64,000 bases of DNA, taken from contig NZ_JAKMCS010000005.1 in the NCBI RefSeq assembly GCF_022662195.1, positions 124,001-188,000 on the forward strand, read 5' to 3'. This DNA is from Aestuariivivens insulae. GTDB lineage: Bacteria; Bacteroidota; Bacteroidia; Flavobacteriales; Flavobacteriaceae. Below are positions 11,077 to 50,262 of this stretch, piece after piece; within the stretch, counting starts at the first letter, position 1; each line of letters starts with the position of its first letter. The position numbers and the translations under genes were made by a program. The notes under the pieces are model-generated. The model was not told the DNA's origin. It searched no databases and was given only the letters and a program-made list of their open reading frames with translations.

Positions 11077-14000
11077 ATGATTAATAAAATCATTGATTTT
11101 TCAATCAATAATAAATTCATTATTGGTTTGCTTACGCTTACCATAGTAGGAGCAGGTATTTGGAGCATGACCAAAGTCCCCATAGACGCTGTTCCAGATA
11201 TAACCAATAACCAAGTTCAAGTGATTACCCAGTCCCCTAATTTAGGGACAGAGGATATTGAGCAAATCATTACTTATCCCATTGAGGTGGCTATGAGTAA
11301 CCTCCCTAATGTTGAAGAAATCCGTTCCATTTCCCGTTTTGGGTTATCGGTAGTCACCGTAGTTTTCGATGACGATATGGGAACCTATTTACCACGGCAA
11401 TTGGTGGCCGAAAAACTTAACGAAGTAAAAGGACAAATCCCAGAAGGTTTTGGAGAACCTTTTATGGGGCCTATTTCAACAGGCTTGGGAGAAATATACC
11501 AATATACCCTTAAGGTTAAGCCCGAGTATAAAGACCAATATTCAATTACCGATTTACGTACCATGCAGGATTGGATCGTGCAACGCCAAATGGCTATGGT
11601 GCCTGGGGTAGTTGAGGTCAATGCCATTGGAGGCAAAATAAAACAATATGAAGTAGCCGTAGATCCAAACGATTTAAAAGCTATTGGGTTGACCATTTCG
11701 GATGTATTTGAAGTACTTCGGGACAACAATCAAAATACGGGAGGAGCTTATATAGAAAAAAGCCATCAGGCTAATTTTATTAGAGGCGAAGGCTTAGTGC
11801 GTAATTTAGAGGATATAAAAAACATTACGGTAAAGACCGTTAATAATATCCCGGTAACTATAGAGGATATTGCTACAGTGCAGTATGGCTCTACCATTCG
11901 CTATGGGGCCTTGACACAAGATGGTGAAGGAGAAGTGGTAGGCGGTCTGGTGATGATGCTAAAAGGAGCAAATTCCAACGACGTTATCGATAATGTAAAA
12001 GAAAGAATGGCGCAAATACAAAAGTCGTTGCCCGAAGGTGTTATTATAGAGCCTCTTTTAGACAGAAGTAAGTTAATAGTGGAAACTACTTCTACAGTAG
12101 CCACGAACCTTATAGAAGGGGCGTTGATCGTTATTTTTATACTGATATTTCTCTTGGGAAATTGGCGTGGCGGTTTAATTGTAGCATCAACCATACCATT
12201 AGCCTTGCTATTTGCTTTTATATTGATGCATGTTTTTGATGTTTGGGCCAATTTGATGAGTTTAGGAGCTATCGATTTTGGGATTATTGTAGATGGGGCG
12301 GTGATTATTGTTGAAACCACAGTGTTCCTTATAGCTTCCCAAATCCATAAAAAGAAAAAACTATCGCCTGCTGAACGCGATACTTTAGCAGCCAAGTCAT
12401 CAAAGAAAATGATGAATGCCGCTTTTTTCGGGCAACTCATTATCTTGATTGTCTTTCTGCCCATTTTAGCATTGCAGGGTATAGAGGGTAAGATGTTTAA
12501 GCCCATGGCACTCACATTCATCTTTGCTATGATAGGAGCCATGATATTGTGCCTTACCTATGTGCCTATGATGTCGGCCTTAATATTGCGGGCGCCGAAG
12601 CATTTAAAAGCCTCTTATGGCGACCGGTTTGTGCAATGGGTAGAGCACAAGTACCAACCTTTATTAGAAAGTGCTTTGAAGAAAGGTAGGCTTATTATAG
12701 GTGTTGCCGTTTGCTTATTTGCAGTAGCTGTATTTATCTTTACGAGAATGGGAGGCGAATTTATTCCTCAGCTCGATGAAGGTGATATTGCCTTTCACGC
12801 CATTTTAAAACCAGGCAGTTCGCTTACAGAAACCATAGAGACCACCACCAAGATTGAGCAGGTGGTAAAGGCAAAGTTTCCCGAAGTTGAAAAAATAGTA
12901 AGTCGTATTGGAGTGGCTGAAATCCCTACAGACCCTATGCCTATGGATATAGCCGATGTTTTTGTGATTCTGAAGCCAAAAAGCGAATGGACAACGGTCG
13001 CTTCAAAAGACGATTTGATTGAAGCTTTGAAGGAAGCCGTTGAAATTATTCCCGGGGTGAATTATGAGTTTACCCAACCCATAGAAATGCGCTTTAATGA
13101 ATTACTGGAAGGCGTTAGGGAAGATATCGCTATTAAGCTTTACGGTGAAGATATTAATATGTTATCCCAAAAAGCCGAAGAGATCACCAAAATTATTGCT
13201 GGTACCCCTGGGATTGGTGACATGAAAGCCGAAGCGACAACAGGTTTACCACAAATGACTATTACCTATAACAGGAGCAAGTTGGCGCAATATGGGCTTC
13301 AAATTAATAAGCTTAATAAGGCGGTAGAATCGGCATTTGCTGGAGGTCATGCAGGTGAGATTTTTGAAGGGGAGAAGCGCTTCGATTTGGTAGTTCGTTT
13401 GCATGCCGAAAACCGAAAGGATATTTCAGATGTACAAAACTTATATGTTAACCTGCCTTCCGGTGTTCAAATTCCACTTCGTGAAGTGGCCGATATATCA
13501 TATCAATCAGGCCCCATGCAAATCAGTAGGGATAATACGAACAGGCGCACTTATGTTGGGGTTAACGTAAGGGGGCGCGATGTAAAATCGTTGGTCACCG
13601 AAATCAAATCGAAACTGGATGCAGAACTTCAATTGCCATCAGGCTATTTTATTCGTTATGGCGGTGCTTTTGAAAACTTGGAACGAGCCAGCAGTCGATT
13701 GCAAACCGTAGTCCCAATTGCCTTGTTGCTCATTTTTGTGTTAATATACTTCGCATTAAAATCACTACCACAAACATTAATGATTTATATAGCCATTCCT
13801 ATGGCTACCATTGGAGGCGTTGTGGCTCTTTGGCTTCGCGATATGCCCTTTAGTATATCGGCAGGGGTTGGCTTTATAGTATTATTTGGTGTTGCTGTAT
13901 TGAACGGCTTGGTTATGGTTAGTGGTTTAAATGAATTGAAGGAAGAAGGGGTGACTAGTCTAAAAGATAGAATTGTGGAAGGTACAAAACGGAGGATCAG

Positions 14001-15411
14001 GCCTATTATGTTAACCGCATTAACAGATATACTGGGCTTCTTGCCTATGGCTGTTTCGGCATCGGCAGGAGCAGAGGTGCAACGGCCACTAGCTACTGTA
14101 GTAATAGGAGGTTTACTAACCTCTACTTTATTGACCTTATTTGTATTGCCAATACTTTACCAATGGGTGGAAAGTAAAACGTTTTCATTTAAATGGAATA
14201 GAGAATTGGTTGCAGCATCAACAATTCTAGTATTTGTGTTTGTGTTGCCAACACAGGTGAATGCACAACAAGATCTGAAAATACTTCCTAAAATAACCTT
14301 GCAGCAAGCAGTGGAACTGTCTAAAAGCAATTACCCCTTGTTAAAACAAAAGCAATTGGAAGTCGAAAAACAGCAACAGTTAAAATCTGCAGCATTCGAT
14401 TTTGGAACAACCCAAATTTTTACAGGAGGAGAGGAAATTAAAGACGGGGTAGGTGTTTATACTACCATTGGTATTGGGCAATCTAATATTGATGTATTTG
14501 GAGTCGCTACCAAAAAGCGATTACAGGAACAACGTATGCAATTGGCCCAAAAGGCTTATAAACTTTCAGATTTAGAATTGGAATTAGAGGTGAAGAAGGC
14601 ATGGGCCAAATGTTTTCAAACGAAAAGTGTCTATAAGCTTTACAAGGAGTTGGATTCAATATATTCAAAGTTTGAGCAATCTGTAGCGTTACATTATGAA
14701 GTGGAGGCCATTTCAAAATTGGAGTATGATGCAGCTAAAAGTCAAGTGCTTCAGATGGACAATAAAAAAAATCAAGCTTATAGTGATTATATCATTGCTT
14801 TACAGCAGTTAAACCTTTGGTTGGTTTCCGATAAGCTTTATACGGTTTCCGATGAATTGGATGCTACCATTTTACTTAATATTGAAAATTTTGATGTTCA
14901 AGCTCACCCGTCCTACACTATGGCGCAAAACTTATATGATGTGGCCGAAGCCGATTATAAAGCGGCAAAAGCCAGTAGTTTGCCAAGACTTAGTTTGCAG
15001 GGTGGTCTTCAGAAAGTAAGTGGTAACTCAGGATTTTATAGCTATCAAGCAGGACTGTCCATCCCATTTTTATCTGGTTCAAATAGAGTACGTATAAAGA
15101 CCGCTAGGATTGATAAAGCAATAGCAGAAACCCAAATTCAGTTTAAAAAACAAGAAGTAAGTATAAAGTTTGAGCAGGCTAAAGCTAATTATAACAAGTG
15201 GAAAGCTTCTTGGGAATTTTATAAAAATAAGGTGTTGCCATTAGCTGCCAATCAAAGAACAGGTGCTTTGTTGGCCTATAAGGAAGGTGAAATAGACTAC
15301 GCGACTTTTACACAGCTAATAAAAGAAGCCATTCAATCTGAGCAGGAATCGCAAGAGGCATTATCTAACTATTTAGAAAGTACATTTCAATTACAATATT
15401 TTAACCCATAA
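11077..15411 (+). CDS. CzcA-type heavy-metal RND efflux pump fused to a TolC-like outer-membrane channel
   Basis: A 1444-residue protein. Residues 1 to about 1045 are a complete HME-RND pump (MINKIIDFSINNKFIIG start, two periplasmic loops, 12 membrane helices). The helix-4 motif DFGIIVDGAVIIVE is the DFGx3DGA form of divalent-cation (Co/Zn/Cd/Ni) pumps rather than the Cu/Ag CusA form. Residues about 1046-1064 form a second hydrophobic stretch ending VNAQ, resembling a cleavable signal peptide, and the remaining 380 residues are a TolC/CzcC-type coiled-coil outer-membrane efflux protein (ITLQQAVELSKSNYP). The adaptor gene follows 4 bp later. Pump and channel are presumably separated by signal peptidase. 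Confidence 0.9.
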   Translation: MINKIIDFSINNKFIIGLLTLTIVGAGIWSMTKVPIDAVPDITNNQVQVITQSPNLGTEDIEQIITYPIEVAMSNLPNVEEIRSISRFGLSVVTVVFDDDMGTYLPRQLVAEKLNEVKGQIPEGFGEPFMGPISTGLGEIYQYTLKVKPEYKDQYSITDLRTMQDWIVQRQMAMVPGVVEVNAIGGKIKQYEVAVDPNDLKAIGLTISDVFEVLRDNNQNTGGAYIEKSHQANFIRGEGLVRNLEDIKNITVKTVNNIPVTIEDIATVQYGSTIRYGALTQDGEGEVVGGLVMMLKGANSNDVIDNVKERMAQIQKSLPEGVIIEPLLDRSKLIVETTSTVATNLIEGALIVIFILIFLLGNWRGGLIVASTIPLALLFAFILMHVFDVWANLMSLGAIDFGIIVDGAVIIVETTVFLIASQIHKKKKLSPAERDTLAAKSSKKMMNAAFFGQLIILIVFLPILALQGIEGKMFKPMALTFIFAMIGAMILCLTYVPMMSALILRAPKHLKASYGDRFVQWVEHKYQPLLESALKKGRLIIGVAVCLFAVAVFIFTRMGGEFIPQLDEGDIAFHAILKPGSSLTETIETTTKIEQVVKAKFPEVEKIVSRIGVAEIPTDPMPMDIADVFVILKPKSEWTTVASKDDLIEALKEAVEIIPGVNYEFTQPIEMRFNELLEGVREDIAIKLYGEDINMLSQKAEEITKIIAGTPGIGDMKAEATTGLPQMTITYNRSKLAQYGLQINKLNKAVESAFAGGHAGEIFEGEKRFDLVVRLHAENRKDISDVQNLYVNLPSGVQIPLREVADISYQSGPMQISRDNTNRRTYVGVNVRGRDVKSLVTEIKSKLDAELQLPSGYFIRYGGAFENLERASSRLQTVVPIALLLIFVLIYFALKSLPQTLMIYIAIPMATIGGVVALWLRDMPFSISAGVGFIVLFGVAVLNGLVMVSGLNELKEEGVTSLKDRIVEGTKRRIRPIMLTALTDILGFLPMAVSASAGAEVQRPLATVVIGGLLTSTLLTLFVLPILYQWVESKTFSFKWNRELVAASTILVFVFVLPTQVNAQQDLKILPKITLQQAVELSKSNYPLLKQKQLEVEKQQQLKSAAFDFGTTQIFTGGEEIKDGVGVYTTIGIGQSNIDVFGVATKKRLQEQRMQLAQKAYKLSDLELELEVKKAWAKCFQTKSVYKLYKELDSIYSKFEQSVALHYEVEAISKLEYDAAKSQVLQMDNKKNQAYSDYIIALQQLNLWLVSDKLYTVSDELDATILLNIENFDVQAHPSYTMAQNLYDVAEADYKAAKASSLPRLSLQGGLQKVSGNSGFYSYQAGLSIPFLSGSNRVRIKTARIDKAIAETQIQFKKQEVSIKFEQAKANYNKWKASWEFYKNKVLPLAANQRTGALLAYKEGEIDYATFTQLIKEAIQSEQESQEALSNYLESTFQLQYFNP

Positions 15412-15415
15412 AATC

Positions 15416-16606
15416 ATGCAAAAAACAGTATATAGATTTACAGTGATGTTTTGTTTGTCACTAATCATTTTTTCCTGCGGAAAAGGAGGGCATTCCCATG
15501 ACGGACATTCACACGACCAAAAAACAGAGGAAAAACAAGAAGAACACCATGATAAAGTCATACTCACAGGGCAGCAGTTCGATGCCTTAAAAATGAAAGT
15601 AGATACTCTTACAAGCCGAAATATGGGAGACTATGTGGAAGCCAATGGGACCTTGGAAGTGCCACCGCAAAATGAAGCGGCAATTACAACAGTTGTAGGA
15701 GCTAATGTTGTGGCGATTGAGGTGATAGAAGGAGATAAGGTCAATAAAGGACAGGTCGTGGCATATTTATCACATCCAAACATTATTAAGCTTCAAACCG
15801 ATTATTTGAATGCCTATAGCAATAGTAATCTTTTAAAAAAGGATTTTGAACGTCAAGAGAAATTGTATAAAGCAGGCGTAGGGGCTGGAGCAAACTTTCA
15901 AAAAGTAGAGGCGTCGTACCAAGCGTCAAAAGCTATGGTAAGTGGTCTAGCGGCACAATTGAAGTTGCTTAATGTCAATGTTAAAACATTGCAAAAGGGT
16001 TCGGTAGCCCAGCGCATCGCTTTGCTTAGTCCCATTGAAGGGTTTGTTCAAAAGGTTGAAGTAAAAACAGGTCAGTATGTTGAACCACAAACCGAGTTGT
16101 TCGAAATTGTAAACACGCATCATGTACATGCCGATTTAATGGTATTTGAAAAAGATGTGCATAAAGTTAAAAAAGGACAAAAAGTTACTTTTAAGGTGCA
16201 ATCCATGCCAGATACAGAGCTCGTGGCTGAAATCTATTCTGTAGGTAAAACTTTTGAGGACAATCCTAAAGCAGTACACCTACATGCCGAAATTGAAAAC
16301 AAGCAGGGTAACCTTATTCCGGGGATGTATATACAAGGAAAAATACAGGTAGACAACAAAAAAACAATGGCCTTACCAGAAAAGGCTATTGTTGACGATG
16401 GAGGAAAATCCTATGTGTTTACTGTGAAAAAAGAAGGTGATAAGTGGGCATTTAAGCCCGTAGAGGTGATTACAGGTGAAAAGGATAGCGATTGGATGGC
16501 AGTTACCTTAATGGAAGGGGTGCCTTCAAAAACCAAATTTGCGTTTAACAATGCTTATTACCTTATGGCTGAAATGAAGAAAGGAGAGGCAGAACATTCT
16601 CATTAG
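15416..16606 (+). CDS. Efflux RND periplasmic adaptor subunit (CzcB/CusB-like) lipoprotein
   Basis: A 396-residue membrane-fusion protein. The lipoprotein signal is LSLIIFSC (Cys about residue 21), directly followed by a His-rich segment, GGHSHDGHSHD, then EEHHDK, likely to bind metal ions. The lipoyl/hairpin core is visible as VVAIEVIEGDKVNKGQVVAYLSHPN (about residues 104-125) and the returning half LLSPIEGFVQKVEVKTGQYV. The C-terminal part provides beta-barrel and membrane-proximal domains. It bridges the RND pump to its outer-membrane channel. It is in an operon with the pump gene, 4 bp apart. Confidence 0.9.
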   Translation: MQKTVYRFTVMFCLSLIIFSCGKGGHSHDGHSHDQKTEEKQEEHHDKVILTGQQFDALKMKVDTLTSRNMGDYVEANGTLEVPPQNEAAITTVVGANVVAIEVIEGDKVNKGQVVAYLSHPNIIKLQTDYLNAYSNSNLLKKDFERQEKLYKAGVGAGANFQKVEASYQASKAMVSGLAAQLKLLNVNVKTLQKGSVAQRIALLSPIEGFVQKVEVKTGQYVEPQTELFEIVNTHHVHADLMVFEKDVHKVKKGQKVTFKVQSMPDTELVAEIYSVGKTFEDNPKAVHLHAEIENKQGNLIPGMYIQGKIQVDNKKTMALPEKAIVDDGGKSYVFTVKKEGDKWAFKPVEVITGEKDSDWMAVTLMEGVPSKTKFAFNNAYYLMAEMKKGEAEHSH

Positions 16607-16639
16607 CTTGGCAATCCCAGTTTGATTATTGCAAAAGTG

Positions 16640-16694
16640 ATTTCTGAAATTTTGTCGTTTGAAAACTAATTCAAAATGTCAAAATTTCAGAAAT
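16640..16694. repeat. Long inverted repeat between the efflux operon and hsp20
   Basis: A perfect 15-bp inverted repeat (ATTTCTGAAATTTTG at 16640-16654 and its complement at 16680-16694), with inner arms TTTGAA/TTCAAA continuing the stem around a loop AACTAA. No T-tract follows, so it could be a two-sided operator or an RNA 3'-end hairpin. Confidence 0.6.
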
Positions 16695-16743
16695 ATGTTA
16701 AGGGATTCTTAATAAATATGTCAAAGTTTACAGGTTTTAGGTT

Positions 16744-16758
16744 TGGTATTTTATTTGT
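16744..16758 (+). promoter_or_regulatory. Sigma-54-like -24/-12 motif ahead of hsp20
   Basis: TGGTAT-TTTAT-TTGT resembles the sigma-54 consensus TGGCAC-N5-TTGC with two mismatches, and GG is followed after exactly 10 bases by GT. It is 49 bp before the start codon. No good TAnnTTTG box competes. Weak on its own; supported by a better match ahead of grpE. Confidence 0.35.
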
Positions 16759-16806
16759 ATATATATGGTTGTAAAACAAATGTTTAACAAATAAAATTTT
16801 TTAATT

Positions 16807-17289
16807 ATGAGCAATCTAGCGACATTACCAAAAAATGGGAATTTAGCACAGAAAAGTAGAAATAGGTTGCCTAATTTCCCAGGCTTATCAACATGGTTTG
16901 ATGATTTTACTTTGGGTGAATTCCCATCTTTATTTTCATCAAGTTTCAACACAGGTATTTCAATGCCTAAAGTTAATATCAAAGAGGTATCTGATGCTTT
17001 TATTGTAGAAATGGCCGTTCCAGGATTAAAAAAATCAGATTTTGATATCAACTTAGATAATAATCTATTGTCTATTTCAGCAGAACTTAAGGATGAAAGC
17101 GAAAATAAAGATGATGGTTATACCCGAAGGGAATTTGGTTATTCTTCATTTAAAAGAGCATTTACATTGCCCGAAACGGTTAATGATAGTAAAATAAACG
17201 CGAATTACAACGAAGGTATTTTAACAGTACATCTTCCTAAAAAAGAAGAAGCCAAGCAAAAACCAGCACGTACTATTAAAATTTCATAA
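16807..17289 (+). CDS. Small heat-shock protein, Hsp20/alpha-crystallin family
   Basis: A 160-residue protein. The alpha-crystallin domain spans about residues 55-150, from MPKVNIKEVSDAFIVEMAVPG to the terminal motif GILTVHLPKKE, which contains the conserved GxLxxxxPK signature. The N-terminal 50 residues are of variable, Phe-rich type (FPGLSTWFDDFTLGEFPSLF). ATP-independent holdase chaperone, cytosolic, forming oligomers. It is monocistronic between a large inverted repeat and a strong terminator, near the tonB and grpE-dnaJ genes. Confidence 0.92.
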   Translation: MSNLATLPKNGNLAQKSRNRLPNFPGLSTWFDDFTLGEFPSLFSSSFNTGISMPKVNIKEVSDAFIVEMAVPGLKKSDFDINLDNNLLSISAELKDESENKDDGYTRREFGYSSFKRAFTLPETVNDSKINANYNEGILTVHLPKKEEAKQKPARTIKIS

Positions 17290-17372: not shown

Positions 17373-17386
17373 ATGATAATTATCAT
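17373..17386. promoter_or_regulatory. FNR/CRP-like palindrome ahead of tonB
   Basis: ATGATAATTATCAT is a perfect 14-bp palindrome containing TGAT-N4-ATCA, the FNR half-site arrangement. Its centre (17379.5) lies 29.5 bp upstream of the box TAATTTTA (17409-17416), the same spacing as the sites at pflB and ppdK. A Fur-like reading is also possible because the gene is tonB. Confidence 0.6.
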
Positions 17387-17408: not shown

Positions 17409-17416
17409 TAATTTTA
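17409..17416 (+). promoter_or_regulatory. -7 box of tonB
   Basis: TAATTTTA, one base from TAnnTTTG, 21 bp before the tonB start. The divergence from consensus fits a promoter that depends on an activator. Confidence 0.4.
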
Positions 17417-17436: not shown

Positions 17437-18165
17437 ATGAAAGCGAAAAAGAACCCCGAAAAGGAAATAGGCAGAAATAGTAGCCTATATTTTGCCATAG
17501 GGTTAATTCTTATGTTATTCATCTCTTGGAGAGCCTTGGAATATAAAACCTATGAGCAATCTAACATTGATATAGGTGTTGTTGATGTCACCGAAGAAGT
17601 CGAAGAAGAGATTCCTGTTATAAATATCAATATGCCACCGCCACCACCGCCACCAGTTACCATTCAAGAATCGATACAAATAGTTGAAGATGTTGAAGAA
17701 ATTGAAGAAACAATTATAGAAAGCACAGAAACCAATCAAGAAGAGGCCATCGAGGAGCGAGTTATAGAGGTTAGTGAAGTTGAAGTTGAAGAAGTTGAAG
17801 AGGAAGTTGAGGTCGCTTTTGCTGTTATAGAAGATGTACCTATATTTCCAGGATGTGAGGGTCGATCTAAAGAAGCCTCTAAACAATGTTTTCAAGAAAA
17901 AGTACAGACCCACGTCAAGAACCATTTTAAATACCCTGAAACTGCAGTCGAATTAGGAATCCAAGGGCGCGTATCGGTTATTTTTGCTATTGATGCTAAC
18001 GGCTATGTTACGGGCATTCGTTCTAGGGGCCCCGATAGGCTTTTGGAAAAAGAAGCCGAACGCATTATAGGTTTATTGCCTAAAATGATTCCTGGCAGGC
18101 AGCGAGGTAAAGCTGTAAAAGTAACCTATGCCGTACCTATTTTTTTTAAACTACAAGACATATAA
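17437..18165 (+). CDS. tonB: Energy transducer TonB
   Basis: A 242-residue protein with a cytoplasmic Lys-rich start, a single membrane anchor (YFAIGLILMLFISW, about residues 18-31), a stretch of seven prolines near residues 68-74, a long Glu/Val-rich periplasmic linker (EEVEEEVE repeats to about residue 130), and a C-terminal TonB domain (about 165-242) with YPETAVELGIQGRVSVIF and the closing YAVPIFFKL. TonB couples the proton motive force to TonB-dependent outer-membrane receptors. ExbB/ExbD are not adjacent. The acidic rather than basic linker is common in flavobacterial TonB paralogues. Confidence 0.9.
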   Translation: MKAKKNPEKEIGRNSSLYFAIGLILMLFISWRALEYKTYEQSNIDIGVVDVTEEVEEEIPVININMPPPPPPPVTIQESIQIVEDVEEIEETIIESTETNQEEAIEERVIEVSEVEVEEVEEEVEVAFAVIEDVPIFPGCEGRSKEASKQCFQEKVQTHVKNHFKYPETAVELGIQGRVSVIFAIDANGYVTGIRSRGPDRLLEKEAERIIGLLPKMIPGRQRGKAVKVTYAVPIFFKLQDI

Positions 18166-42910: not shown

Positions 42911-42926
42911 ACTGACTTTTGTCAGT
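42911..42926. promoter_or_regulatory. FNR/CRP-like site of pflB
   Basis: ACTGAC-TTTT-GTCAGT, a perfect 16-bp palindrome with TGAC-N4-GTCA core. Its centre (42918.5) is 29.5 bp ahead of the -7 box, about -41 from the expected start of transcription. Confidence 0.75.
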
Positions 42927-42947
42927 TTTATTGTTTGTCATTGCAAG

Positions 42948-42955
42948 TACTTTTG
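42948..42955 (+). promoter_or_regulatory. -7 box of pflB
   Basis: TACTTTTG matches TAnnTTTG and lies 49 bp ahead of the pflB start codon. No good -33 element is visible, as expected for an activator-dependent promoter. Confidence 0.65.
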
Positions 42956-43004
42956 GATTGTTCTTTTAATGAAGATTTTTTCAAAATATTAATTGTATAT
43001 AGCC

Positions 43005-45230
43005 ATGGAAGTAAAACCATTTGTAAACGGAATTTGGACAGATAGAGTGGATGTTAGAAATTTTGTTATTAATAATATTACACCTTATTATGGGACGCAT
43101 CATTTTTTAGTTGGTCCGAGCAAAAGAACCCAAAAATTATGGGATATATGTAAAGAAGCTACTAAAGAGGAACGTAAGAATAATGGGGTTCGTGCCGTTG
43201 ATACTGAAACGATTTCTACAATAAGTGCCTTTAGCGCAGGATATATAGATAAAGAAAACGAAGTGATTGTGGGCTTGCAAACCGATGAGTTGCTAAAACG
43301 TACCATGAAACCTTTTGGAGGTTTTAAAGTAGTTCAAAAAGCGTTGTCCGAGCATGGAGTAAAACCAAACAAAGCCATAACAGAATTATTCTCTAAATAT
43401 GTTAAGACCCATAACGATGGCGTTTTTGATGCCTATACCAATGAAATAAAGAAATACCGCTCTTTAGGGTTTTTAACAGGCCTGCCAGATAATTATGCTA
43501 GAGGTAGAATTATTGGTGATTACCGTAGGGTTGCTTTATATGGAGTTGAATTTTTAATTAAAGCCAAAAAAGTCGATTTAAATAACATTCAAGGGCCAAT
43601 GACCGATGCCGTTATTCGCTTACGGGAAGAGGTATCCGAACAAATTAAAGCCTTAAAAGAGATCATTGAGTTGGGGGCTAAGTACAATTTAGACTTAAGC
43701 CGTCCTGCCGAAAATGCTAAAGAAGCGGTGCAGTGGACCTATATGGCATACCTAGCTGCGGTTAAGGAACAGGATGGTGCAGCCATGTCTTTAGGTAATG
43801 TGTCTACTTTCTTGGATATTTATATTGAGAACGATTTGCAGGAAGGTTTAATTACCGAAGTAGAAGCCCAAGAATATATAGACCAGTTTGTGATGAAATT
43901 ACGAATGGTACGCCATTTAAGAATGGGCGCTTACGACGAGATTTTTGCTGGCGATCCAACTTGGGTAACCGAAGCTATTGGTGGTATGTTTGAAGACGGT
44001 AGGACTAAGGTATCCAAAACTTCTTTTAGGTTTTTAAATACATTATATAACCTAGGCCCTTCACCAGAACCTAATATGACTGTGCTTTGGTCTGAAGATT
44101 TACCGCAAAATTTTAAGGATTATTGTGCCAAAGTGGCCATAGATACATCATCCATCCAATTTGAGAACGATGCCCTAATGCGAACAAGTAGGGGAACAGA
44201 CGATTATGGCATAGCCTGTTGTGTATCCCACCAAGCCTTGGGGAAATCCATTCAGTTTTTTGGGGCACGTACCAATTTAGCTAAAACATTATTGTTGGCC
44301 ATAAATGGTGGTCGTTGTGAAATTACAGGAACCAAAATGGTAGACGGTATTGCCCCATGCGATGGGGAGTATTTAGATTTCGATACCGTTATGGCTAACT
44401 TTAAAACAGCCATGAAACAAGTGGCTCGTGTGTATAACGATTCCATGAACATTATCCATTATATGCACGATAAGTATTATTACGAAAAAGCACAAATGGC
44501 ATTAATCGATACCAATCCAAGTATTAACATTGCTTATGGTATAGCAGGCTTGTCTATTGTAGCAGATTCCTTATCGGCAATCAAATATGCCAAAGTAAAA
44601 CCCATTAGAAATGAGGAAGGTTTAACCGTCGATTTTAAAATTGAAGGCGAGTTCCCTTGCTATGGTAATGATGATGACCGCGTTGATTTGTTAGCCGCTA
44701 AGGCGGTGGCCGATTTCAATAACGAACTCAAACAATTGGATGTCTATAAAAATGCAGAGCCTACCATGTCTGTGCTCACCATAACATCCAATGTGGCCTA
44801 TGGTAAAAAAACAGGGGCAACACCAGATGGAAGAGCAAAAGGAGTGCCATTTGCACCAGGGGCCAACCCTATGCACGGACGGGATTCCCATGGGGCAATA
44901 GCTTCCCTTAACTCTGTAGCAAAGATTAATTATAGCGACTCCCAAGATGGTATTTCCAATACGTTTTCCATTGTGCCAAAATCTTTAGGGGCCAATGAAG
45001 GAGATAGGATTGAAAATTTGGCAAGTATTTTAGATGGTTATTTTTCTAGAAATGCACAGCATATTAATGTGAATGTTTTAAATAAGGAAACCTTGCTTGA
45101 CGCCATGGAACATCCCGAAGAATATCCACAATTAACCATTCGTGTTTCTGGTTATGCCGTAAACTTTGTGAGGTTAACCAAAGAGCAGCAACTGGAAGTC
45201 ATTACACGATCGTTCCACGAATCCATGTAA
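43005..45230 (+). CDS. pflB: Formate C-acetyltransferase (pyruvate formate-lyase)
   Basis: A 741-residue enzyme from ATG 43005 ([20 protein letters not shown]); a TTG 12 bp earlier is less likely. The catalytic cysteine pair is Cys405-Cys406 in GIACCVSHQ, and the radical-bearing glycine is Gly716 in [13 protein letters not shown]. It converts pyruvate and CoA to acetyl-CoA and formate in the absence of oxygen. Length and motifs match true PFL (about 760 residues) rather than glycerol dehydratase-like relatives. The activase gene follows 63 bp later. Confidence 0.95.
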
Positions 45231-45256: not shown

Positions 45257-45299
45257 GCACCTGAATAAGGAAGTGTAACAGCTTCTTGTTCAGGTGCAA
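45257..45299 (+). promoter_or_regulatory. Strong hairpin between pflB and pflA
   Basis: GCACCTGAA (45257-45265) pairs perfectly with TTCAGGTGC (45290-45298), and inner bases AAGGAAG/CTTCTT extend the stem. AAATTTTAAAA follows. It may act as a partial terminator or mRNA-stabilising 3' structure, giving much PflB and little PflA. Confidence 0.6.
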
Positions 45300-46067
45300 A
45301 TTTTAAAATTGGAAATTATTAAAACTGAAGATAACATATTGCACGTACACTCAGTAGAATCCTTTGGAACTCACGACGGACCGGGTGTTCGTATGGTTGT
45401 ATTTTTACAAGGGTGTAAACTAAAATGCTTGTATTGCCATAATCCAGATACTATAGATACACATGGAGGTAAAGCCTATCCTATTGAGGAACTGGTACAA
45501 ATGGCTATAAAAGAAAAACCCTATTTTGGAAAAAAAGGAGGGGTAACAGTTTCTGGAGGAGAACCTTTGTTGCAATCCAAAGCATTGATTCCATTTTTTA
45601 AGCGCTTAAAGGAAGAGGGCATTCATACCAACATAGATACTAACGGTAGAATATTAAACCATTTTACCGAGCAATTGTTGGATAACTATACAGATTTGGT
45701 GATGTTGGATATCAAGCACATGACCGAAGCAGGATACGAAACCTTAACAGGAGCTAAAAACAAAGAAACCACATTCAATTTTGCAAAATACAGAGAAGCT
45801 TCAGGAAAGCCAATGTGGTTGCGTTATGTGCTTATTCCTGAAATAACCAATAAGCCAGAGTTGTTGCATGCTATGGGGGAGTACTTTAAAGAGTATAAAA
45901 CCATTGAAAAAATTGAACTGCAACCCTATCACAAGCTTGGCATTCATAAATGGGAGGCATTAGGATGGGACTATCAATTAAAGGAAGCTCGAGAAAATAC
46001 AGAAGAAGAAATTGATGCAGCAGTACTGGTATTGCAACACTATTTTAAAGAAGTAAAAGTAAACTAA
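45294..46067 (+). CDS. pflA: Pyruvate formate-lyase activating enzyme (radical SAM)
   Basis: Up to 257 residues. The radical-SAM cluster motif CKLKCLYCHNPDT has the CxxxCxxC pattern, preceded by SVESFGTHDGPGVRMVVFLQG and followed by GGVTVSGGEPLLQ (SAM-binding GGE). It installs the glycyl radical on Gly716 of PflB using S-adenosylmethionine. No ATG is available: GTG 45294 lies within a hairpin arm, while TTG 45309 or TTG 45339 gives an N-terminus closer in length to known activases. The start is therefore uncertain. Confidence 0.92.
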   Translation: MQILKLEIIKTEDNILHVHSVESFGTHDGPGVRMVVFLQGCKLKCLYCHNPDTIDTHGGKAYPIEELVQMAIKEKPYFGKKGGVTVSGGEPLLQSKALIPFFKRLKEEGIHTNIDTNGRILNHFTEQLLDNYTDLVMLDIKHMTEAGYETLTGAKNKETTFNFAKYREASGKPMWLRYVLIPEITNKPELLHAMGEYFKEYKTIEKIELQPYHKLGIHKWEALGWDYQLKEARENTEEEIDAAVLVLQHYFKEVKVN

Positions 46068-46087: not shown

Positions 46088-47344
46088 ATGAATACACAAA
46101 AACTAAAAAACCGATGGTTAATAGCGGCTTCAGCAGTTGGGATACACATTTCAATAGGGTCTGTTTATGCTTATTCTGTAATGACCAATCCTGTTAAGGA
46201 CATCTTCAGTGTAGAAGGTAGTACAGTAAAATGGGCCTTTAAGATTGCCATTTTGTTATTAGGCTTTTCAGCTGCTTTTTTAGGGCGTTGGGTTGAAAAA
46301 GTAGGCCCAAAAGTAAGTGGTACAGCAGCAGGACTTTTTTATGGTATAGGTATTTTGGGCTCGGGCATGGCCGTGCAGTTGGAGTCCTTGCCCTTATTTT
46401 TTCTATGCTATGGGGTTATTGGGGGAATAGGTTTAGGATTGGGGTATATTACTCCGGTTAGTACATTAGTAAAATGGTTTCCAGATAGACGCGGCTTGGC
46501 AACTGGAATGGCTATTATGGGCTTTGGGTTTGCGGCCTTAATTTTTGGTCCCATTATGCAATCCCTTTTTGATGCTGTAGGGGTTTCCAATGCCTTTTAT
46601 ATTTTAGGGGTAATTTACATGGTACTCATATTAGCATCGGCAAGATATATAGAAAAACCTCCTGAAGGCTATTTGCCAGAAGGGTTTCAGAAAGGAGAAG
46701 GTAAAAACATTAAAGCAGATATGGCAAATATCGATGCCAGCACAGCTTTAAGAACCACTCGTTTTTACTATATCTGGGTCATGATGTTTATAAATATTGC
46801 TTGTGGTATTGCTATTATCTCTGCTGCAAGCCCGATGATGCAAGAAAAACTAAACTATACGCCAATGGAAGCGGCTGCAATAGTGGGCTTAATAGGAGTG
46901 TTTAATGGCTTGGGCAGAATATTATGGTCAACCCTTTCAGATTATTTAGGAAGATCCAATACCTATATCGTGTTTTTTGTATTTCAAATATTGGCTTTTT
47001 ACTTTTTGCCGAAAATCTCGATGGAATTAACATTCTTAGTGGTTCTGTTTACAGTTATTACCATGTATGGTGGTGGTTTCTCAACACTACCAGCCTTTTT
47101 GGGCGATTTATTTGGTACCAAACAATTAGGAGCCATTCACGGGTTGGTATTAACGGCTTGGGCATTGGCGGGTGTTGTAGGGCCCACCATTTACGATGTG
47201 GTTAAATCGGCTACAGGATCCTTAGATACAACCTTAATGGTGTTTGCAGGATTGTTTTTAGTGGCTTTTGCTATAGCATTATTAATGAAGCGTGAAGTAG
47301 CCAATGCCTATAAGAAATTAGATAAAAGATTAAGGTTTGCTTAG
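46088..47344 (+). CDS. MFS transporter of the oxalate/formate antiporter (OFA) family
   Basis: A 418-residue protein with 12 membrane segments. The N-terminal helix SAVGIHISIGSVYAYSVMTNPV, the GGIGLGLGYITPVSTLVKWFPDRRGLATG loop (residues 111-139) and FNGLGRILWSTLSDYLGRSNTY (the second MFS cytoplasmic-loop motif) are typical of OFA carriers. Adjacent to PFL genes, it most likely exports formate or exchanges organic anions such as pyruvate or lactate. It starts 20 bp after pflA, so it is in the same operon, and a strong terminator follows. Confidence 0.85.
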   Translation: MNTQKLKNRWLIAASAVGIHISIGSVYAYSVMTNPVKDIFSVEGSTVKWAFKIAILLLGFSAAFLGRWVEKVGPKVSGTAAGLFYGIGILGSGMAVQLESLPLFFLCYGVIGGIGLGLGYITPVSTLVKWFPDRRGLATGMAIMGFGFAALIFGPIMQSLFDAVGVSNAFYILGVIYMVLILASARYIEKPPEGYLPEGFQKGEGKNIKADMANIDASTALRTTRFYYIWVMMFINIACGIAIISAASPMMQEKLNYTPMEAAAIVGLIGVFNGLGRILWSTLSDYLGRSNTYIVFFVFQILAFYFLPKISMELTFLVVLFTVITMYGGGFSTLPAFLGDLFGTKQLGAIHGLVLTAWALAGVVGPTIYDVVKSATGSLDTTLMVFAGLFLVAFAIALLMKREVANAYKKLDKRLRFA

Positions 47345-47450: not shown

Positions 47451-47464
47451 ATGACTTTTATCAT
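47451..47464. promoter_or_regulatory. FNR/CRP-like site of ppdK
   Basis: ATGAC-TTTT-ATCAT, imperfect palindrome of TGAC-N4-ATCA type. Its centre (47457.5) is 29.5 bp ahead of the box TACTTTTA at 47487, the same geometry as in pflB and tonB. Confidence 0.6.
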
Positions 47465-47486: not shown

Positions 47487-47494
47487 TACTTTTA
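47487..47494 (+). promoter_or_regulatory. -7 box of ppdK
   Basis: TACTTTTA, one base from TAnnTTTG, 39 bp before the ppdK start codon. Confidence 0.5.
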
Positions 47495-47532: not shown

Positions 47533-50262
47533 ATGGAAATACTAGAAGATGTGAAAACAAGAGTGTATAAATTCGGTAATAAGACAGCCGATGGAAATAG
47601 TACAATGCGTAACCTTTTAGGAGGAAAAGGAGCTAATCTAGCAGAAATGAGTGCCATAGGAATTCCTGTGCCACCAGGTTTTACCATTACAACCGAAGTT
47701 TGTACAGAATATAACCAATTAGGTCAGGAAGCTGTTATTGAAATGATTAAACCAGAAGTTGAAATTTCTATAGCAAATATTGAATCTTTAATGGGAAGTA
47801 CTTTTGGCGATAAGGAGAATCCGTTATTGGTTTCGGTACGCTCTGGTGCTCGGGTATCCATGCCGGGTATGATGGATACCGTTTTAAATTTGGGCATGAA
47901 CGATGAGGTGGTACAAGGTTTGGCTGCAAAGACCAATAACGAACAATTTGCATGGGATTCTTACCGTCGCTTTATCCAAATGTATGGGGGTGTGGTTTTA
48001 GGTATGAAGCCAGCTTCAAAAGAAGATATCGATCCTTTTGAGGAAATCATGGAGCACTTAAAACATAAAAGAGGCATTCAATTGGATACCGAGTTTACGG
48101 TACAAGATTTAAAAGATTTGGTATATGATTTTAAGGATGCGGTCAAGAAACGAACTGGGCATGATTTTCCAACCAATCCTTGGGATCAGCTTTGGGGGGC
48201 AATTGTAGCCGTATTTAATAGTTGGAATGGCGATAGGGCAGTATATTATAGAAATATGCATGGTTATCCAGCCGATTGGGGAACCGCAGTAAATGTGCAG
48301 GCCATGGTGTATGGTAATATGGGAGATAATTCCGGTACGGGGGTTTGTTTTACGCGCGATGCAGGAACCGGAGAAAATGTGTTTAATGGAGAGTACCTTA
48401 TAAATGCTCAAGGTGAAGATGTGGTTGCTGGTGTGAGAACGCCACAGCAAATTACAAAGCTAGGGTCTCAACGTTGGGCAGAATTGGCAAAAGTTGAAGA
48501 AGAAGATCGCTTGAAAAACTATCCTTCTTTAGAAGAATTAATGCCGTCCATATTTAAAGAATTAAACAGCTATCAGGACACTTTAGAAAAGCACTATCGA
48601 GACATGCAGGATATGGAGTTTACCATTCAGGATGGTAAACTATGGATTTTACAAACAAGGAATGGTAAGCGTACAGGAGCTGCTATGGTGAAAATTGGAA
48701 TGGATCTTCTAAAAGAAGGTATGATTGATGAAAAAGAAGCTTTATTATTGGTTGAGCCTAATAAGTTGGATGAATTGTTGCATCCTATTTTCGATCCTTC
48801 AGCATTAAAACGAGCCCATGTTATTGCACAAGGGTTGCCAGCCTCTCCTGGTGCAGCTACAGGTAAAATAGTGTTCTTTGCCGATGAAGCAGCTAAATAC
48901 AAAAACAGTATTTTGGTTCGTATTGAAACCTCGCCAGAAGATTTGGAAGGGATGAATATCGCCAAAGGTATTTTAACGGCTCGAGGCGGTATGACCTCAC
49001 ATGCAGCTGTTGTGGCCCGAGGTATGGGTAAATGTTGTGTGTCTGGAGCGGGAGCCTTAAAAATTAATTATAAAACGAGAACATTAACTGTTGATGACCA
49101 TGAGTATCATGAAGGCGATTGGATTTCATTAAACGGATCAACAGGTAATATTTTTGAAGGCAAAGTAGCGACTATGGAGCCTGAGTTAAGCGGTGAATTT
49201 GCAGAACTTATGGCGCTAACAGATAAGTATGGCGAAATGAAGGTGCGTACCAATGCCGATACACCTAAAGATGCTAAAATAGCCCGTAATTTTGGAGCGC
49301 AAGGAATAGGGTTGACCAGAACGGAACATATGTTCTTTGAAGTGGATAGGATTAAGGCCATGCGCGAAATGATTCTGGCTGATACGGTAAAAGGTAGAAA
49401 ACAAGCCCTTGAAGAATTGTTGCCTATGCAGCGTTCAGACTTTGAAGGTATTTTTGAAGCTATGGAAGGGTTATCGGTGACCATTCGTTTATTGGATCCG
49501 CCGTTACACGAATTTGTACCCCATCAGTTAGCAACCCAAAAGGAACTGGCTGAAGATATGCATATTTCGTTACAGGCCGTAAAAAATAAAGTGGCCGAAT
49601 TGGAGGAATTTAACCCTATGTTGGGGCACAGAGGTTGTCGCTTAGGAAATACCTATCCAGAGATTACCGAAATGCAAACCCGGGCCATTATTGAAGCAGC
49701 GCTTAATTTAAAAGAACGTGGTATTATTTGTAAACCGGAAATCATGATTCCGTTAGTGGGAACCGTTAAAGAGTTTGAAGCTCAAGAACAAGTTATTAGA
49801 ACTACGGCGAATACGGTTTTTGAAGAACGAAATGATAGTGTTGAGTATTTGGTAGGAACCATGATTGAAGTGCCTAGAGCGGCATTGATGGCCGATTTAA
49901 TTGCTGAAAAAGCCGATTTCTTCTCCTTTGGTACTAACGATTTAACACAGATGACCTTTGGGTACTCTCGCGACGATGCTAGTAAGTTCTTACCTATATA
50001 TATTGAAAAAGGCATTTTGAACGTCGATCCTTTTGAAGTACTGGATCAAGAAGGCGTAGGGCAATTGGTTAAACTAGGTACTGAACGCGGAAGAAGTGTA
50101 AAACCAAACTTAAAAGTTGGTATTTGTGGTGAGCATGGTGGTGAACCAAGTTCTGTTGAGTTTTGCTATAATACAGGAATGGACTATGTAAGTTGTTCAC
50201 CTTATAGAGTGCCTATTGCACGATTAGTTTCTGCACAAGCGGCTATAAAAGCCACTATGTAA
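47533..50262 (+). CDS. ppdK: Pyruvate, phosphate dikinase
   Basis: A 909-residue enzyme with N-terminal ATP-grasp domain (MRNLLGGKGANLAEMSAIGIPVPPGF, about residues 26-51), central phosphohistidine domain with His490 in GGMTSHAAVVARG, and C-terminal PEP/pyruvate barrel with GTNDLTQMTFGYSRDD and the Cys of GICGEHGGEP near residue 864. It interconverts ATP, phosphate and pyruvate with AMP, pyrophosphate and PEP. Next to PFL it may run in the ATP-forming direction or supply PEP from pyruvate. It has its own promoter with an FNR-like site and shares a bidirectional terminator with purL. Confidence 0.96.
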   Translation: MEILEDVKTRVYKFGNKTADGNSTMRNLLGGKGANLAEMSAIGIPVPPGFTITTEVCTEYNQLGQEAVIEMIKPEVEISIANIESLMGSTFGDKENPLLVSVRSGARVSMPGMMDTVLNLGMNDEVVQGLAAKTNNEQFAWDSYRRFIQMYGGVVLGMKPASKEDIDPFEEIMEHLKHKRGIQLDTEFTVQDLKDLVYDFKDAVKKRTGHDFPTNPWDQLWGAIVAVFNSWNGDRAVYYRNMHGYPADWGTAVNVQAMVYGNMGDNSGTGVCFTRDAGTGENVFNGEYLINAQGEDVVAGVRTPQQITKLGSQRWAELAKVEEEDRLKNYPSLEELMPSIFKELNSYQDTLEKHYRDMQDMEFTIQDGKLWILQTRNGKRTGAAMVKIGMDLLKEGMIDEKEALLLVEPNKLDELLHPIFDPSALKRAHVIAQGLPASPGAATGKIVFFADEAAKYKNSILVRIETSPEDLEGMNIAKGILTARGGMTSHAAVVARGMGKCCVSGAGALKINYKTRTLTVDDHEYHEGDWISLNGSTGNIFEGKVATMEPELSGEFAELMALTDKYGEMKVRTNADTPKDAKIARNFGAQGIGLTRTEHMFFEVDRIKAMREMILADTVKGRKQALEELLPMQRSDFEGIFEAMEGLSVTIRLLDPPLHEFVPHQLATQKELAEDMHISLQAVKNKVAELEEFNPMLGHRGCRLGNTYPEITEMQTRAIIEAALNLKERGIICKPEIMIPLVGTVKEFEAQEQVIRTTANTVFEERNDSVEYLVGTMIEVPRAALMADLIAEKADFFSFGTNDLTQMTFGYSRDDASKFLPIYIEKGILNVDPFEVLDQEGVGQLVKLGTERGRSVKPNLKVGICGEHGGEPSSVEFCYNTGMDYVSCSPYRVPIARLVSAQAAIKATM

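Follow-up and report, generated by a model that had tools for sequence, protein, structure and literature searches.

A predicted FNR-like regulon that includes a tonB paralogue in Aestuariivivens insulae and other Flavobacteriaceae

The window, by which we mean the whole stretch of 64,000 nucleotides that was analysed, corresponds to positions 124001-188000 of contig C29 in the 4.23-Mb source genome (G000) and holds three genes, all on the plus strand, that are preceded by the same pair of promoter elements. The first is tonB (17437..18165), encoding a protein of 242 aa with a C-terminal TonB domain above the Pfam cut-off (PF03544 TonB_C, 55.7 bits against 24.6) and a proline-rich linker, in which a run of five prolines (68-72) is invariant in 12 aligned rows. 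Ahead of it lie a predicted FNR-type operator, ATGATAATTATCAT (17373..17386, core at 17374), and, 23 bp past the core, a -7 box, TAATTTTA (17409..17416). The second gene is pflB, for pyruvate formate-lyase (43005..45230; PF02901 and PF01228), with the predicted operator ACTGACTTTTGTCAGT (42911..42926, core at 42913) and the box TACTTTTG (42948..42955). The ORF tool placed its start at the TTG at 42993, and by eye the ATG at 43005 is likelier. Downstream, in the same direction, are a radical-SAM protein (45294..46067; PF13353, PF04055), which is probably pflA judging from its place and family, and an MFS transporter (46088..47344; PF07690) that may belong to the pfl operon. The third is ppdK, for pyruvate phosphate dikinase (47533..50262; PF01326, PF00391, PF02896), preceded by the predicted operator ATGACTTTTATCAT (47451..47464, core at 47452) and the box TACTTTTA (47487..47494). 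Directly upstream of tonB (11077-17289) are a 1444-aa open reading frame, an HlyD-type adaptor and an Hsp20 gene; Hsp20 was found near tonB genes of this type in only 7 loci, the window included, so the surroundings seen here are not the common neighbourhood of the gene.

An earlier note on this DNA had described three TGAY-N4-RTCA sites, each with a TAnnTTTR box 29.5 bp from the site centre. All the sites and boxes are where that note placed them, and the distance is exact in the three cases, being equivalent to 23 bp from the end of the core. There are four such cores in the window, the fourth (61283) without a box, and tolerating one mismatch in the core yielded no extra composite there. 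When core and box are joined in one rule, TGAYN4RTCA-N23-TAnnTTTR (the composite), simulating the window 300 times with a first-order Markov model gave a mean of 0.0067 per 64 kb, both strands counted, from two events over all 300 runs, compared with the 3 observed. The whole genome has 22 exact composites, against an expectation of about 0.44 from scaling up the window simulation and against 2 matches to the backwards pattern used as control. Scanning 31 spacings (gaps 8 to 38) with TGAC-type cores only gave 14 of 21 rows at gap 23 and 7 elsewhere, for which the binomial P is about 1e-16. The matching promoter signals of tonB, pflB and ppdK are real and beyond chance, and the fixed spacing claimed for them is likewise far above chance genome-wide.

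The operators thus stand at one dominant distance ahead of the -10/-7 element, as at class II promoters. The box fits the Bacteroidota -7 element, TANNTTTGY, as given in the part of the source covered (PMC12632263), so the operator centre would lie near -40 to -42, in keeping with the class II position near -41.5 that had been proposed.

In 60 genomes, the source genome included, we counted 745 composites and 24 backwards matches, of which 655 and 17, respectively, came from the 37 genomes of the same family. A wider set of 247 genomes of the phylum (the same-family genomes G004 and G035 are in both sets) gave 5 to 48 composites in each of the 26 same-family genomes besides the source, 429 in total against 19 backwards, while 31 same-class genomes had 143 against 15 and three same-order genomes had 11, 11 and 3. 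The other 186 genomes mostly had 0 to 2, with a maximum of 8 as read off the table. By these counts, which come from related genomes and are not independent trials, the arrangement is strongest in the family of the source organism.

The genes behind the 22 sites were identified with Pfam and NCBIfam. Besides tonB, pflB and ppdK, they include a pyruvate:ferredoxin oxidoreductase (PFOR) with a divergent ferredoxin (Pfam), hemN (above the curated NCBIfam cut-off), a gene with a COX1 domain (Pfam) that is ccoN by its place beside a P-type ATPase, napA (above the NCBIfam cut-off), nirK (above cut-off; a copper nitrite reductase that also has a cytochrome c domain), and pta, a phosphate acetyltransferase (Pfam). 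Composites also precede genes for a cytochrome c, an Fe-S protein, a universal stress protein (Usp), two CBS proteins, a thioredoxin-like protein, an EF-G-like GTPase, a CitMHS transporter and a DUF7486 protein. No family match was obtained for three first genes, namely L006, which stands alone, a gene with nrdG (above cut-off) after it, and a gene that precedes a TonB-dependent receptor. The called starts of napA and of the EF-G-like gene are about 260-270 bp past the box. Most of the named targets are low-oxygen genes, either fermentative or anaerobic-respiratory, and the set mostly matches what we take to be the make-up of an FNR regulon (compare E. coli FNR and Anr).

The sites are also conserved in relatives, as the earlier note had proposed to check. 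All 40 composites of the congener G001 were inspected, three of them before tonB, pflB and ppdK and 37 before other genes. For 19 of the 22 targets of the source genome there is a homologue behind an exact composite in G001: tonB, pflB and ppdK, plus 16 for which one-way blastp gave 61 to 99.5% identity. With nirK, the gene before nrdG and the receptor operon, no homologue stood behind a composite in that genome. Core and box at gap 23 precede 5 of 7 pflB orthologues (no core within 350 bp in G005 and G017) and 4 of 5 scored ppdK orthologues, the distant G037 being the one without and the truncated L074 being left out of the scoring; the core precedes tonB in all 11 relatives of the window type that can be scored.

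The EF-G-like GTPase of the source genome (L002, G000:C4:22468) and its counterpart in G001 (L266) are 90% identical and both stand behind a composite. The master regulator of carbohydrate use in Bacteroides is reportedly a CRP-type protein. An alternative protein synthesis factor of Bacteroides is under that regulator, according to the part of the source covered (PMC6989115), and, taken with the gene found here, this suggests that control of translation factors by CRP/FNR proteins may be more widespread. At L212:1800-3638 (G000:C27), a protein of 604-612 aa with no match in Pfam or NCBIfam follows a composite and precedes an nrdG3-type activase above cut-off; it is perhaps a divergent anaerobic ribonucleotide reductase. 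In G001, a composite precedes a 394-aa multihaem cytochrome-like protein (L251, G001:C5:1129400-1131800) with Cytochrome_C7 above cut-off and an MtrC/MtrF-like match below cut-off, for which anoxic electron transfer at the surface is possible. On contig C6 of the same genome, an MlaE permease and several NHL/beta-propeller proteins, one of them with Ig-like repeats, also lie behind a composite (L256, L259, L260, L262).

A profile search with PF13545 found six places in the source genome, four of them above cut-off. As had been predicted from the sites, a CRP/FNR gene is present: L023, on contig C32 close to ccoN, encodes an FNR-like protein and has the core in its own promoter. The protein contains PF00027, PF13545 and PF00325 (sensor and HTH, full-length FNR homology) and matches crystallised FNR (5cvr) over query residues 4-219 with E 3e-21 in phmmer; we take the PDB entries 5cvr and 5e44 to be FNR of Escherichia coli/Aliivibrio fischeri. 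Among NCBI families the Fnr model PRK11161 fits it best, at 98.7 bits, which is below the cut-off of 228. An E and an R in the FNR recognition helix read TGA/TCA; the helix of L023 is TESAIR, and by eye both residues are kept in 29 aligned rows. The core lies within 160 nt upstream of 26 of 29 L023 orthologues, with the exception of L109, L119 and L123. In 16 of these 26 promoters, TAnnTTT starts 9 bp past the core, not 23. Gap 9 would put the operator inside the core promoter, a place for a repressor, as would be expected for negative autoregulation.

FNR itself has three N-terminal cysteines, C-x2-C-x5-C, and one central cysteine. All 29 aligned proteins have cysteines at C4, C7, C53 and C106 of L023 (L127 is left out of this alignment), while C29 is a cysteine in 18 and C59 in 22 of the 29. 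On alignment to FNR, C4-C7 and C106 fall on FNR cysteines (C106 with C122), and the third N-terminal cysteine falls on N13, at a place where no column has 10 or more cysteines among the 29 rows. The classical arrangement having failed, L023 is filed as FNR-like and not as FNR. The invariant C53, inside the cNMP-binding-type domain, is a candidate fourth cluster ligand as predicted from the alignment, and L023 could still work like FNR despite its altered cysteines.

Over the 60 genomes, the number of composites follows the best match to L023 (Spearman 0.72). Composite counts range from 0 to 53 in the 41 genomes whose match is below 1e-40, with low values in, among others, G055 (0), G023 (1), G029 (2), G049 (4) and G005, G015 and G042 (5 each), and 14 of the 19 genomes lacking such a match have 0 or 1. 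The exceptions among these 19 are G034 (25), G010 (24), G030 (15), G025 (7) and G046 (3); the first four are rich in sites with no close L023 orthologue, so another FNR-like protein can use the sites. FNR-like frames that exceed FNR in length, at about 350-385 aa, are present in G001 (C6:108320), G002 (C1:78270), G003 (C16:64940) and others, and frames of 350 to 385 aa are also found in G010, G025, G030 and G034.

These data make L023 the likely regulator of the composite sites. The earlier note had proposed a single CRP/FNR regulator; an FNR-like gene with the core bears out the regulator and not its being single, since a second protein, L024, could share the sites. It is unlikely, though the strongest of the alternatives, that L024 is the main user of the operators, or shares them, with L023 as one of several inputs such as NO/nitrate sensing. 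By eye, the recognition helix of L024 matches that of L023 in its E and R (EQVIR and ESAIR, respectively); L024 also has a C-x2-C-x4-C cysteine group, its gene is about 7 kb from the napA site, and the site-rich genomes lacking a close L023 orthologue would be accommodated. Nevertheless, the core that precedes L023 is absent within 300 bp upstream of L024, as it is for the other two CRP/FNR proteins, L025 and L026, which by eye do not have the E. The tracking of site number with the best L023 match, in a comparison that covers L023 alone, also argues against L024, as do hemN, ccoN, pfl and PFOR, which are linked to oxygen rather than to nitrogen oxides.

The tonB site had been the unexpected part of the claim. 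Among the 30 best tonB loci of 40 relatives, the core was within 300 bp upstream in 13 and absent in 16, with 1 locus unscorable. Every scorable member of the window-type clade (11 loci) is among these 13, the other two being L041, from a second clade, and L056, whose core lacks a box; a strict box at gap 23 accompanies the core in 8 of the 12 loci besides L056. For comparison, 19 other TonB loci of the same genome set had no core. A further 80 tonB loci of named genomes were fetched by protein similarity alone, with 12 tonB proteins as query, which makes the promoter an independent test. The core was within 200 bp upstream in 66 of the 79 scorable loci and absent in 13; random 200-nt windows of the same loci had it in 143 of 7707. 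All 66 promoters with the core have TAnnTT at gap 23 (strict TAnnTTTR in 47), and at any other gap from 5 to 45 it occurs in at most 3. Hence the tonB link holds. According to the record titles, the core-bearing loci are spread over about twenty named genera, and a spacing so fixed over this range is what an activator touching RNA polymerase would need.

In a TonB tree of 125 rows, of which six pairs are identical proteins, the core follows the clades, with four changes over the whole tree. The clade to which the TonB of the window belongs (62 rows, SH-aLRT 100) has the core in 61 of 61 scored rows, and a clade with Maribacter, Zobellia and Croceivirga (18 rows) in 17 of 18. Another clade, which includes the second tonB of the source genome, has it in 0 of 24, and the remaining 21 rows have it in 1. 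A quick tree had hinted at two independent gains of the site; we set these aside, as a constrained tree joining all core-bearing rows of the two clades is not rejected and fits slightly better (p-AU 0.62), and a single origin across the two clades is the simpler reading. The proposal had spoken of one TonB system. One tonB gene does carry the site, and the claim does not extend to a whole system, as the three recurrent neighbours of tonB that were compared with Pfam are neither exbB nor exbD. ExbB/ExbD had also been expected beside the other tonB of the source genome, and the 4 kb there hold gcvH, a vanZ-like gene and the second tonB.

Could the site before tonB be a bystander, kept for a neighbouring gene or by descent, with tonB itself outside oxygen control? 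Of the 66 core-bearing loci, 28 have a CarboxypepD_reg-type TonB-dependent receptor that lies within 6 kb upstream and points the same way, and the regulation of tonB by the site is read from sequence. We consider this very unlikely all the same: the core is 61-189 bp ahead of the start of the tonB match in 66 of 66 loci, with TAnnTT at one gap, while the neighbours vary; the upstream receptor has no core and box of its own where its start can be read; and the core persists in tonB loci down to 52% protein identity with the TonB of the window. As a co-regulated partner the receptor was rejected, with no core around the start in 26 of the 28 loci and a core without box in two (in three of the 28 the receptor is cut off at the end of the locus, so that the reading there does not reach its start). 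That a cAMP-CRP-like carbon regulator (compare the MalR/Cur-type CRP of Bacteroides) uses the sites, making the tonB link one to carbon and not oxygen, is the least credible alternative: a TGA..TCA half-site is common to CRP and FNR, tonB would suit nutrient uptake under a carbon regulator, and a CRP-like protein without the N-terminal cysteine cluster, L025, is encoded about 1.1 kb before hemN, yet by eye the two helix positions of L025 do not hold the E and R, no core lies upstream of it, and most named targets are anaerobic enzymes.

Copper was considered as a client of the regulated TonB. An OprC-like receptor of the source genome (L208) has a composite 491 bp upstream and the motifs CxxxM (CPNRM, 115) and HxM (HFM, 296), 181 residues apart, also present in five other translated homologues (L219 left out); we predict that they form a copper site. 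The copper receptor model TIGR01778 fits L208 best, at 240.9 bits, short of the cut-off of 472.45, and close homologues occur in only 4 of the 40 genomes searched. In the parts of the source covered, OprC has a copper site with C143 and H323, in motifs 180 residues apart, and NosA/OprC is anaerobically expressed (PMC8610252); TonB-dependent copper transporters are linked to respiratory oxidases in the part covered of another (PMC12914433). L208 thus shares with OprC/NosA the CxxxM/HxM pair, and differs by its score below cut-off and its narrow spread. The composites are 491, 757 and 779 bp before the match in G000, G004 and G014, and G009 has none; perhaps they serve the gene in between. Between operator and receptor in the source genome (L208:942-1319) is a cysteine-bearing protein of 125 aa with no family match. 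Copper as a general client was rejected, as the congeners G001-G003 have no close homologue of the receptor, G009 has no composite before it, and the tonB genes read in G004 and G014 lack a core upstream. The copper link is thus a lead and not an explanation. None of the leads on the client, whether the OprC-like receptor, the copper and iron enzymes of the regulon or the CarboxypepD_reg-type receptor, covers the whole family.

The fixed architecture, its excess in the genome and the family, the low-oxygen targets, the conservation and the core in L023-type promoters, all obtained by computation, form the basis of the explanation that we favour, with a probability of roughly 85%: an FNR-like regulon with a dedicated tonB paralogue and fixed class II operators, switched on at low oxygen. 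One FNR-like activator would act at a fixed position, about -41, on promoters of the Bacteroidota type, and low oxygen would turn on fermentative and anaerobic-respiratory genes together with the dedicated tonB. L023 would bind the operators, its cysteines holding an oxygen-labile Fe-S cluster, and it would activate at gap 23 and repress its own gene at gap 9. The extra TonB may adjust outer-membrane import to anoxic life, for example in metal supply to the copper and iron enzymes of the regulon. More tentatively, and with somewhat less than even confidence, we suggest that Flavobacteriaceae have two TonB isoforms, one without operator and one under class II control by the FNR-like protein at anoxia, together with a variant FNR in which the third ligand has moved out of the N-terminal loop to C53 in the sensor domain. 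The second isoform would have been passed down with its operator through much of the family, and its induction would re-energise or redirect import across the outer membrane under anoxia.

L023 resembles FNR in its full-length homology, class II place, anaerobic targets, central cysteine and N-terminal C-x2-C. The site core here is (A/C)TGA(C/T)N4, compared with TTGATN4 for FNR. Unlike FNR, L023 has no third N-terminal cysteine and instead the invariant C53 in the cNMP-binding-type domain, and its regulon uses a TAnnTTTG promoter and includes tonB. HcpR, PgRsp and CrpPg of Porphyromonas gingivalis and MalR/Cur of Bacteroides are said to serve nitrosative stress or carbon use. These proteins are of the same superfamily and phylum as L023, and the parts covered of the sources describing them contain neither the composite motif nor a tonB target (PMC12040651, PMC8510549); the part covered of the second links a Flavobacteriales CRP/FNR protein to MalR and a carbon role (PMC8510549). 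The best-ranked literature matches, with few subscription journals among them, contain in the parts covered no flavobacterial FNR regulon, no such motif and no FNR-controlled tonB.

Such a regulon would give a list of target genes, a promoter rule (TGAYN4RTCA-N23-TAnnTTTR) that can be searched in other genomes, and a candidate oxygen sensor whose set of cysteines is altered. Flavobacteriaceae, usually regarded as aerobes, are major degraders of marine polymers and rely on TonB-dependent uptake. If true, a family-wide FNR-like regulon that has a TonB of its own would couple the energy supply of outer-membrane import to oxygen.
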